From contig WQSN01000021.1 in assembly GCA_009787835.1 (NCBI GenBank), positions 1-42,671 of the forward strand: a stretch of DNA of 42,671 nucleotides. The letters run 5' to 3'. Numbering within the stretch: the first letter of the stretch is position 1; each line of letters starts with the position of its first letter. The position numbers and the translations under genes are program-made. This document shows, piece after piece, positions 30,269-32,435 of the stretch. The DNA comes from Treponema sp. GTDB lineage: Bacteria; Spirochaetota; Spirochaetia; Treponematales; Breznakiellaceae. The notes under the pieces were generated by a model. It saw only the letters and a list, made by a program, of their open reading frames with translations, did not search any database and was not told where the DNA came from.

Positions 30269-30656
30269 TTTTAACTCCTTCTTTAATAAAAATTTCGAGT
30301 TCCTTCAGGATCTCCGTGTCTGCGCAGCCTAAAGCGCGCATTTCTCCCATAAAACGGCTCTGTGAATCCAAAGCCAGGATGCGGCGTGTTTTTTCAATCA
30401 TTTCTTTTTCCTCCGTAGAAAAATATCCGGTGCCTCTTTTACTGCTGATCAGTCCATCCCGCTCCATTTCCTGATACGCGCGCTGCATGGTATTTGTGTT
30501 TACCTTTAACAGCGCTGACATTTCTCGGATTGATGGAATACGCTCACCCGGCGATATATCTCCCCGGACAAACGCCTGACTGAACTGGAGAATAATTTGG
30601 CGGTATATCGGACTCCGGTCATCAAACGCCAGTCTCCATTGTTCCCATAATAACAT
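30222..30656 (-). CDS. GntR-family repressor, YtrA subfamily
   Basis: A 144-aa regulator with an N-terminal winged helix (SPIYRQIILQFSQAFVRGDISPGERIPSIREMSALLKVNTNTMQRAYQEME is the canonical region, about 15-65; GLISSKRGTGYFST is the wing) and a short C-terminal dimerisation segment without a ligand-binding domain. That compact shape and the downstream ABC genes define the YtrA subfamily. It probably represses its own operon by binding the inverted repeat in front of it. ATG 30656 has AGGGAGG upstream. Confidence 0.92.
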   Translation of the reverse strand: MLLWEQWRLAFDDRSPIYRQIILQFSQAFVRGDISPGERIPSIREMSALLKVNTNTMQRAYQEMERDGLISSKRGTGYFSTEEKEMIEKTRRILALDSQSRFMGEMRALGCADTEILKELEIFIKEGVKNGNNANAGFHVAAGS

Positions 30657-30671
30657 AGTGCTACCTCCCTA

Positions 30672-30711
30672 TGTGTACTATAACACTAATACACAATAAC
30701 ACTTTTGTCAA
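30672..30711 (-). promoter_or_regulatory. GntR operon promoter and YtrA-type operator
   Basis: TGTGTA (30672-30677) and TACACA (30690-30695) form an inverted repeat with a 12-bp spacer, close to the GTGTA-N-TACAC operators known for YtrA regulators. A minus-strand -35 TTGACA lies at 30706-30711; with a 17-bp spacer the -10 is TAGTGT (30683-30688), inside the operator. Binding would block polymerase, giving autorepression. Confidence 0.7.
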
Positions 30712-30742
30712 GCAATTTTTAGTTAAATTTTATAATTGAGGC

Positions 30743-30784
30743 GGTTCCAAAACTTTCGAACCGCAGGTTCGCGTTTTTGGAACC
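30743..30784. repeat. Near-palindromic hairpin beside the 23-bp array
   Basis: Outer arms GGTTCCAAAA (30743-30752) and TTTTGGAACC (30775-30784) are perfect complements. Inner arms CGAACC (30757-30762) and GGTTCG (30766-30771) also pair around a 3-nt loop, with a small internal loop between the two stems. No strong T run follows. It ends 7 nt before the first array unit and may mark the left edge of that element. Confidence 0.75.
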
Positions 30785-30791
30785 TTTACCA

Positions 30792-31204
30792 TAGATTTTA
30801 ATTTTCCTTTCGCAGAATCATGACTATGCTTTTTGCATTATTTCTATTATACTTTTCGCAGTAGGTATATTATACTTATTGCAATAATCCTAATACGCTT
30901 TTCGCATAATTTCTATTATTTATTTTGCAGATAGTTTAATGTTCTTTTTGCTCAATATCTACTATACTTTTTGCATTATTTTTACTATTTTTATCGCCGT
31001 AACCTTATTGTTCTTTTTGCATCTAATATTTTATTCTTATCGCATCATTTCTAATATGCTTTTCGCACAGTTTCTATTATATGTTTTGCAGTTACTTTAC
31101 TATACTTTTTATACAACTCCTATTGTACTTTTTGCATTACTTCTATTATACTTATTGCAGCAGTTTTATTATATTTTTCGCAGTAGAATAGGGGTTTTTA
31201 TGCA
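30792..31204 (+). repeat. Degenerate tandem array with exact 23-bp period, 17 units plus a 22-nt terminal unit
   Basis: Seventeen consecutive units of exactly 23 nt (first 30792-30814, last full 31160-31182) without insertions or deletions. Positions 1-7 vary; positions 8-23 follow TATTATACTTTTTGCA. Read directly, T at positions 11, 17 and 19 is invariant in all 17; A9, T8, T13, G21 and C22 occur in 16 of 17; A23 in 15. Position 18 alternates T/A and position 20 T/C. A final 22-nt unit (31183-31204) contains the ribosome site and the ATG of the AAA gene. The plus strand is T-rich. It could be protein-binding sites about two helical turns apart, a structured or bound leader RNA, or an iteron-like element. 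This array, the hairpin at 30743 and the operator at 30672 account for the gene-free stretch 30657-31199. Confidence 0.92.
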
Positions 31205-32435
31205 CAATGAATACAAACGCTGGCAGGCCGATGGCGTTAGAAATATCTTAAATACGCGCCGGGTCGTGGTAGTATCCGGAGCAAGGCAGACAGGTAAGAC
31301 CACTCTTTCCCGGCAAGTTATAGATAATCTTGAAGAATACCGTTCACTGGATGATTCATTTATGCTGGATTACGCTCTTTCTGACCCCAAAGGGTTTATT
31401 TTTAATAATACCGGGACTATGGTGATCGATGAAATCCAAAAAGCGCCAAAACTCATACCGGAAATTAAGCTGGTTGTAGACAAGGACAAGCGTCCTGGGC
31501 AATTTTTGCTGACAGGTTCCGCCAACATTCTAACTTTACCTACCATTAGCGATAGTCTTGCCGGTCGTGTAAAGTACATTCGTCTGCGGCCGCTTACTGT
31601 CGGTGAAATAATGGGTAAAAAGCCGTCCTTTTTTTCGCGGGCTTATGAAAAAGATTTTCCCGCGATAATAAGCGGCTACAACAAGGAATATATTATCAAT
31701 TTGGCTTTTCGGGGCGGTTATCCGGAAGCGGTGGCGATTGATAATATTCAGCAAAGAAGAGTCTGGCATAATGATTTCATAAATACAATACTCATGCGTG
31801 ATTTAAAGGATATTGCGAATATTCGCAGGCAGAATGACTTGCAGAGTCTGGTTGGCATTCTTGCCTCATGGTCATCCAAATTTATGGAACTGTCCCAGAT
31901 AACATCCGCGCTATCCATCAATAAAGTTACTTTGGACAGTTATATTAATACGTTGGTTTCAATGTATATGTATGAAAAGGTTTTACCGTGGTTAAAAACA
32001 GATTATGAACGGGTTGGCAGAAGGTCGAAATTTTACGCGACAGATACCGGAATAATGGCGTCATCTCTTGGCTGGAATCCAAAAGAAGTCATTATGAATA
32101 ATGACCGTTCGGGTAAATTAATTGAAACATTTGTTTTCCAGGAACTTGCGGCGCAGGTAGACATGGATTATAAATACAGGCTTTTTCAATACCGCGACAG
32201 GCTCGACAGGGAAATTGATTTTCTGATTGAGCGTGATGACGGAGCGCTGCTTGGAATTGAGGTAAAAGCCGGACACAGCGTTTCAAAAGACGATTTTAAG
32301 TCTCAATTTTGGTTTCAGGAAAACATAGTGAAAAATAATAATCCTTATATTGGGATTATTGTTTATTCAGGCGACAGAACTGTTCCATTCGCGGAGAATA
32401 TGTTTGCGGTTCCCACAGCGGCCTTATGGCTGTAA
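31200..32435 (+). CDS. AAA-family ATPase with DUF4143 (PD-(D/E)XK-like) C-terminal domain
   Basis: A 411-aa cytoplasmic protein of the AAA_14/DUF4143 family. N-terminal ATPase: Walker A GARQTGKTT (27-35), Walker B TMVIDEIQKAP (73-83), sensor LLTGSANI (103-110), then the family's RVKYIRLRPLTVGEI. The middle has a winged-helix-like segment (LSQITSALSINKVTLDSYI). The C-terminal DUF4143 region contains REID (337-340) and GIEVKAG (352-358), the E/D...ExK pattern of PD-(D/E)XK folds; function is not established. An ORF without stops extends upstream through the repeat array, but 23-nt units cannot code periodically and GGGG at 31191-31194 marks ATG 31200 as the start. Located between a GntR operon and yjbQ, it looks like an inserted accessory module. 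Confidence 0.88.
   Translation: MHNEYKRWQADGVRNILNTRRVVVVSGARQTGKTTLSRQVIDNLEEYRSLDDSFMLDYALSDPKGFIFNNTGTMVIDEIQKAPKLIPEIKLVVDKDKRPGQFLLTGSANILTLPTISDSLAGRVKYIRLRPLTVGEIMGKKPSFFSRAYEKDFPAIISGYNKEYIINLAFRGGYPEAVAIDNIQQRRVWHNDFINTILMRDLKDIANIRRQNDLQSLVGILASWSSKFMELSQITSALSINKVTLDSYINTLVSMYMYEKVLPWLKTDYERVGRRSKFYATDTGIMASSLGWNPKEVIMNNDRSGKLIETFVFQELAAQVDMDYKYRLFQYRDRLDREIDFLIERDDGALLGIEVKAGHSVSKDDFKSQFWFQENIVKNNNPYIGIIVYSGDRTVPFAENMFAVPTAALWL

Follow-up and report, generated by a model that had tools for sequence, protein, structure and literature searches.

Why should an ATPase gene of a Treponema sp. be preceded by a block of short direct repeats kept to an exact period, and which protein might read them? 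The locus lies in what we call the window, that is, the whole stretch of 42,671 nucleotides that was analysed, and its main features are as follows.

30792..31182, + strand: direct-repeat array of 17 x 23-bp units (register print, lag identity, column counts, TRF)
31190..31194, + strand: AGGGG, likely ribosome-binding site, 5 nt before the ATG at 31200 (sequence)
31200..32435, + strand: AAA_14/DUF4143 ATPase of 411 aa, PDC-S01 family (Pfam; PADLOC PDC-S01, 421 bits)

A register print of 30792-31182 resolves the block, which we propose to be an operator array, into 17 abutting 23-bp units in strict register with zero indels, just as the initial annotation had it. The unit core, approximately TATTATACTTTTYGCA, occupies unit positions 8-23, and the 5' third is variable. 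Self-identity reaches 0.60 at lags 23 and 46 and stays at 0.24-0.40 at the remaining lags between 5 and 59. Column counts agree with the earlier tally of nine constant positions: columns 8, 9, 11, 13, 17, 19, 21, 22 and 23 carry a single base in at least 15 of the 17 units. Positions 1-7 had been called free, which holds except for position 3 (A in 12/17) and position 6 (T in 13/17). The 22-nt stretch at 31183-31204, previously counted as a last unit, does hold the ribosome site but matches the unit poorly. Between-unit identity averages 14-16/23 at every separation of 1-12 units; since about one third of the bases thus differ regardless of distance, the units did not arise in a recent burst of copying. 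TRF at its default score reports 30792-31182 as the sole tandem array in the window, tolerating 3% indels where the register print has none.

The array ends 17 bp before the ATG at 31200. The reading frame of this gene is open upstream to 30939, within the array, so that an automatic caller could set the gene start too early. A period of 23 is not divisible by three, which rules out a coding repeat, as had been argued before; the open frame is incidental. A CRISPR array had also been dismissed, correctly so given that the units abut, share 14-16 of 23 bases and have a variable part of only about 7 nt. An imperfect inverted repeat, partly terminator-like (30757-30771), is visible by eye at 30739-30783, in the gap that separates the array from the divergent GntR gene. 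The alignment with a syntenic relative (G010) shows no counterpart of it, and a search for inverted repeats (at least 14 bp, 9-bp seed) found none.

The gene downstream of the array encodes a protein with three recognizable parts.

31257..31610, + strand: AAA_14 domain, residues 20-137 (Pfam, alignment)
31827..31985, + strand: predicted winged-helix domain, approximately residues 210-262 (AlphaFold2 model, alignment)
32097..32414, + strand: PD-(D/E)XK-like C-terminal domain, approximately residues 300-405 (alignment, AlphaFold2 model)

Pfam matches to AAA_14 (88.2 bits, cut-off 27) and DUF4143 (114 bits, cut-off 28.1), together with an EID/EVK motif, uphold the earlier description of an ATPase with a PD-(D/E)XK-like C-terminus. 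The PADLOC PDC-S01 profile scores 421 bits over residues 1-410 and is also matched by 5/5 relatives scanned. The AAA_14 domain carries the Walker A motif GARQTGKT and the Walker B motif MVIDEIQK. In the C-terminal motif EID...(13)...EVK, E338 and D340 are invariant and E354 and K356 nearly so, and from this motif we take the domain to belong to the PD-(D/E)XK superfamily. The same superfamily is stated for PDC-S01 in part of its published description (PMC12988326). In the AlphaFold2 model, helices at 211-223, 231-238 and 242-254 and a strand at 258-261 form what we read as a winged helix, with SINKVTLDSYINTL as its candidate recognition helix. Fold comparison of the model (VIA-align) places the archaeal ATPases 2qen and 2fna and NLR/CED-4 at the top and also matches an Orc1/Cdc6-DNA complex; a sequence search found no credible relatives in the PDB (best E 0.2). 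The predicted protein thus has the NTPase plus winged-helix fold typical of the STAND class, a resemblance rather than proof of membership. No Rep initiator family was matched in Pfam at E up to 0.001, with AAA_14, DUF4143 and a weak AAA_22 match present.

In order to determine whether the link between array and ATPase is accidental, a doubt raised by the initial annotation, we surveyed other DUF4143 genes. A home-made profile detected 100 + 132 DUF4143 ORFs, of which 95 + 97 were kept; those removed had no P-loop match, a short or N-rich upstream region or a duplicate upstream sequence. The resulting 192 genes, from the treponeme order (n = 95) and from other genomes (n = 97), exclude the window gene, which was added to the protein tree and covariation set. 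The loci were 60 hand-picked among the matches listed plus 29 given, and 60 more picked among the matches listed plus 30 given, the hand-picked ones being chosen roughly by score or genome spread and not randomly. Some members of the diverse set are orthologues picked up through their similarity to the window protein, the surveyed genes are related and hence not independent, and most of the genomes are probably MAGs. Start codons were estimated from the position of the P-loop. An array was called at a score of at least 9 within 200 bp upstream, with periods of 19-36 searched and thresholds set by us after seeing shuffled and control scores. Controls were other genes of the same loci, dropped where their upstream region overlaps that of the DUF4143 gene. 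In a first control set, 14/426 genes scored at least 0.6, and 13 of these 14 lie in loci whose DUF4143 gene has the same period; because the period is shared at the locus, these 13 signals are the same array as that of the DUF4143 gene.

Upstream arrays were called in 97/192 DUF4143 genes and in 6/709 control genes (53/95 versus 3/379 in the treponeme order; 44/97 versus 3/330 in other genomes), and similar repeat blocks precede DUF4143 genes within the genus, across the order and in several bacterial phyla. Among the 97 calls, 24 have two units and 8 stop over 60 bp short of the start; a stricter rule (at least 3 units, end no more than 60 bp from the start) retains 69/192 genes, with periods of 23 (39 genes), 33 (14), 32 (9), 22 (6) and 21 (1). 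Averaged lag profiles avoid any threshold: both DUF4143 sets show peaks at 23 (z 5.4 and 4.4), at 32-33 and at 46, and these peaks appear in neither control set. Arrays occur inside 0/187 DUF4143 genes and within approximately 200 bp downstream of 3/187. The array-ATPase link is therefore not accidental, given 97/192 against 6/709, and arrays are not universal in the family: 95/192 genes have none by threshold, 15 of them ambiguous. The three downstream cases are L092_2, whose locus includes a further DUF4143 gene that has an array, and L037_0 and L190_0, with 24-bp and 20-bp repeats; with so few of them, an origin as mobile-element ends was rejected.

Two of the surveyed loci are unusual. At L037 a 24-bp repeat (CTGGCACCTCAC-like) lies upstream of the ATPase and another repeat of 24-bp period downstream, near a 156-aa ORF that resembles a transposase; these repeats are probably unrelated to the operator arrays. 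On an Asticcacaulis plasmid (L163, 1375-2533) the annotation splits the ATPase into an AAA piece and a DUF4143 piece that overlap, apparently a broken gene. Plasmid homologues reach the array score at 3/16 loci (L166, L263, L265), and several of the remaining plasmid loci show, by eye, an inverted repeat at the start. The three Thermus loci examined gave 0/3. A survey centred on Bacteroidota, around a Butyricimonas isolate (genomes drawn evenly, one best match per genome, 27 of 29 loci scored), yielded arrays at 6/27 genes, with periods of 22, 23, 32 and one of 34, and inverted repeats at 19 further genes of the 27. Among AAA controls with a sub-threshold ATPase_2 match (20 loci, 12 scored), 2/12 have arrays (L312 and L319), and these two are members of the DUF4143 family since the DUF4143 profile matches them at E below 1e-110. 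The remaining 10 have neither array nor inverted repeat.

The 97 periods are bimodal, with 21-24 bp in 56 genes, 31-33 bp in 41 and nothing at 25-30, so that the two groups stand approximately one helical turn apart. Units of the 33 class tend to be palindromic (median 0.52 versus a null of 0.33; 54% of 41 beyond the null 95%), which the 23 class as a whole is not (0.37 versus 0.35; 14% of 56). Genes without an array have a long inverted repeat at the promoter (score of at least 9) in 66% of 95 cases, compared with 12% of 200 sampled controls. One or the other element precedes 160/192 DUF4143 genes and 83/709 controls, or 141/192 and 30/709 at a stricter inverted-repeat limit; 32/192 DUF4143 genes have neither. 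On a protein tree of 188 sequences, built with FastTree only, the 23 and 33 classes require 4 changes, where 300 shuffles average 31.5 and never fall below 23, and presence versus absence of an array requires 24 versus 56.7 when shuffled.

Some single cases illustrate these layouts. Near-perfect palindromes of 43-46 bp stand directly before array-less DUF4143 genes at L186 (-78..-33), L175 (-81..-39) and L260 (by eye). By-eye comparison also finds ACTCAGTATACTGAGT or close variants before DUF4143 genes of Actinomycetota, treponeme and other genomes, spaced by 21-22 bp or as a single palindrome: L265 (a Collinsella plasmid), L029 (contig C12 of the window's own genome), L291 and L222. In the cultured isolate Butyricimonas synergistica DSM 23225 (L156), three 22-bp copies can be made out by eye ahead of the gene, where the array caller chose a different stretch. 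Among PF01637 ATPase_2 genes of relatives (L298-L307), a strong inverted repeat lies just upstream in 8/10 genes over the family cut-off, and 0/10 reach the array score; self-operators may extend to this related family.

Could the array be a functionless product of neutral slippage? Unit number does differ between syntenic loci. In the relative G010, whose ATPase is 79% identical to that of the window and sits beside relatives of the window GntR and ABC-transporter genes, the intergenic region has 5 units where the window has 17, both with a period of 23 bp, so that count varies while period holds, the behaviour that the initial annotation had thought worth looking for. Slippage nevertheless has a negligible probability, given that the calls are confined to 21-24 and 31-33 bp in a search of 19-36, that they mark 97/192 family members against 6/709 controls and that period is tied to protein clade. 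The restricted periods, and the unchanged 23 bp at 17 and 5 units, support the earlier proposal that the spacing is under selection.

The assembly to which the window belongs contains five DUF4143 matches, four of which have clear arrays: the window, C5 and C30 at 23 bp and C12 at 21 bp; the fifth (C113) gave a weak two-unit call at 32 bp. C5 and C30 (L027, L028) encode the same DUF4143 protein behind an identical printed array sequence, and are either a true duplication or an artefact of assembly or binning (8.4% contamination is listed). A two-unit pattern has 20 matches in the assembly, of which the window accounts for 16 and two other DUF4143 loci for the remaining 4, compared with 1 for a control pattern. 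A wider regulon was rejected, as this pattern is confined to DUF4143 loci and the upstream stretches of the two other loci are identical. For a single-unit pattern 7/8 matches fall inside the window array, and a reversed control has 4 matches; the 23-bp unit is private to the window array and elsewhere in the assembly is not above chance.

Most arrays have 2-5 units; beyond the window and one 15-unit array of 33-bp period, the maximum in the 192-gene set is 7. The 15-unit array lies upstream of the DUF4143 gene L216_1 (G211, contig 44, a MAG labelled Chitinispirillales). Seventeen units, far above the usual number and approached by one other member only, together with a predicted fold that resembles oligomerising STAND proteins, would suit an array that serves mainly as a docking, assembly or target site for an immune function, for example by parking the ATPase-nuclease in an off state or concentrating it, with transcription secondary. 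We consider this improbable, as arrays lie upstream of the family's own genes, are rare downstream and absent within genes, and as the two-unit pattern occurs in the window's own assembly only before DUF4143 genes.

A -35/-10 pair with a 17-bp spacer was found in 23/56 genes of the 23 class, 16/41 of the 33 class, 28/95 others and 39/709 controls; in the 23 class, each other spacer from 14 to 20 occurs in 1-5 of 56 genes. L103, for example, has TTGACA-17-TATAAT, and both L146 and L107 have TTTACA-17-TATACT; in L147, TTGACA and TATAAT stand 18 bp apart as counted by eye. By a looser rule the promoter is recognizable in 30/56 genes of the 23 class, and in 22 of those 30 the -35 lies inside the array, so these relatives show the overlap of sites with the gene's own promoter that is expected of an operator. 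Since 6 + 17 = 23, the -10 falls at the would-be start of the next unit, and array and polymerase hexamers share one register. A search of 30650-31260 in the window found zero consensus sigma-70 sites; register with the orthologues suggests the following candidates.

31147..31152, + strand: TATACT in unit 16, candidate -35 (placed by orthologue register)
31170..31175, + strand: TATATT in unit 17, candidate -10 (placed by orthologue register)

The same anatomy bears on whether the repeats function at the RNA level, in a leader structure or as a source of small RNA. Some last units do reach or include the start codon, which lies within the last unit in L095 and L139. With the -35 inside the array in 22/30 genes, however, most units are upstream of transcription and a leader RNA fits poorly; moreover, 23-bp units are non-palindromic as a class, and no known RNA element was matched in Rfam up to E 1 across 30600-31260. 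We therefore regard action in RNA as very improbable.

If the array is an operator, the repeat should follow the protein that reads it. We compared repeats and proteins in 40 genes with a period of 23 and at least 3 units, the window included. Repeat similarity climbs with protein similarity, from a median of 0.28 at 20-30% identity to 0.77 above 70%. With the other domains held fixed, the partial correlation with the repeat is 0.200 for the winged helix (maximum of 300 permutations, 0.197), 0.054 for the AAA domain (95% permutation limit 0.074) and 0.113 for the nuclease domain, which is above its own 95% limit (0.075). Covariation between site and DNA-binding domain, another trait of operators, is thus seen in the winged-helix partial correlation and is weak at single columns: residues 249, 214, 154 and 242 rank highest, and three of these four belong to the predicted winged helix, which holds 6 of the top 20 columns (p = 0.049) and 8 of the top 40 (p = 0.19). 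These single-column values are suggestive and weakly favour the winged helix.

Repeats that resemble those of treponemes (32 pairs, 0.46-0.83) also accompany orthologues of 58-61% identity in MAGs that carry the labels Betaproteobacteria, Chitinispirillales, Fibrimonadaceae and Endomicrobium. Judged by their isolate names all four MAGs are presumably from termite gut, and misbinning is thus possible. Paralogues of one genome are mostly unlike in repeat (15 hand-listed pairs, 0.15-0.56). Overall, repeat sequence follows the protein rather than the host, and best its predicted winged-helix domain. No neighbour gene family recurs in more than 2/20 orthologue loci, so that the ATPase alone among the proteins was observed to accompany the array. 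The array and promoter anatomy would suit any DNA-binding regulator, and binding by the ATPase is our inference, so that another host regulator could read the operator with the ATPase merely its target. This we hold to be quite improbable, because paralogues in one genome differ in repeat while orthologues from MAGs labelled as other phyla have similar ones, because no neighbour family accompanies the array and because the unit is not found above chance elsewhere in the assembly. The winged helix of STAND proteins often serves autoinhibition rather than DNA reading, which counts against its reading of the array.

Taken together, the array is probably an autogenous operator whose reader would be the winged helix of the ATPase itself; this is our best explanation of the locus. 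Of the options in the initial annotation, a putative self-regulatory operator or cooperative DNA platform fits best, with the bound leader RNA a poor fit. We propose that a STAND/AAA-like ATPase-nuclease would bind each 23-bp unit through its winged helix, one protomer per direct repeat, and that the oligomer would grow along the promoter. Gene-proximal units would cover the -35, with the -10 one period (23 bp) further downstream, and the bound array would exclude RNA polymerase, so that the level of the protein would be set by negative feedback. In other clades the same logic may operate through palindromes that recur in tandem at 32-33 bp, or through one long inverted repeat, and the window's 17 units may represent an expansion of the usual 2-5. 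What we observe are the array, its family-wide link upstream of DUF4143 genes, the restricted periods, the promoter overlap in other members and the match of repeat to protein, closest for the winged helix; binding by the ATPase itself, cooperativity, repression and any tie to immunity we infer.

More tentatively, and with considerable doubt, the whole PDC-S01/DUF4143 family, perhaps with ATPase_2, might consist of self-reading immune ATPase-nucleases that form ordered oligomers on private promoter arrays. Period would then be a clade code (23-bp head-to-tail, 33-bp palindrome or single long palindrome), and displacement, for example by invader DNA or nucleotide state, would trigger both activity and the protein's own expression. 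The autogenous operator would explain a previously unplaced repeat layout and would extend the known modes of gene self-control to long direct-repeat arrays whose period is fixed and specific to the clade. With a cis element matched to its protein, every array-bearing PDC-S01 member has a predicted DNA target, which offers a test of the role of the winged helix as well as a measure of when the gene switches on.

How does this compare with known systems? The initial annotation knew of no described system with this layout. Direct-repeat operators as such are known, among them iterons and RptR; the statement stands for the DUF4143/PDC-S01 family, in that our search of the literature on DUF4143, AAA_14, PDC-S01, operator arrays and iterons found no report of the layout. 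Plasmid iterons are direct repeats of approximately two helical turns placed before the gene of a self-controlling winged-helix Rep initiator. The window locus is alike in having direct repeats ahead of a gene for a winged-helix protein predicted to control its own synthesis. It differs in that the protein is an ATPase-nuclease without a Pfam Rep match and with no replication function indicated, and in that the locus lies among ordinary genes on contig C21 of a 143-contig assembly, where a chromosomal location is assumed. Compared with the STAND ATPases 2qen and 2fna and NLR/CED-4, the window protein adds a C-terminal PD-(D/E)XK domain and, as proposed here, self-operator arrays.

In the parts of PMC12988326 that concern it, PDC-S01 is the fourth most common defence across prokaryotes and still an unvalidated candidate, experimental validation of most PDCs being described as pending; that description of PDC-S01 mentions no cis-regulatory element, and the word "promoter" occurs 0 times in the main text (PMC12988326). 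In Thermus thermophilus, a passage of PMC4406477 reports that the AAA_14/DUF4143 gene TT_P0211 is up 6.6-fold in wild type with versus without plasmid, and that a strain lacking Argonaute shows no more than 4-fold change on plasmid addition. This induction is a weak external hint of a regulated DUF4143 gene; TT_P0211 was not recognised among the three Thermus loci scored. Among the closest parallels to a defence-linked array is RptR, a repressor described in part of PMC12255303 as binding three direct repeats in a defence-island promoter, which indicates that a direct-repeat promoter layout can regulate defence genes. There, too, direct repeats follow one another in an anti-phage promoter and are bound by a dedicated regulator, but the reader is a small separate repressor with three repeats and a 6-bp palindromic site (PMC12255303). 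At the DUF4143 loci, in contrast, the effector gene itself likely encodes the reader, and the repeats follow periods of 23 or 32-33 bp with up to 17 units.
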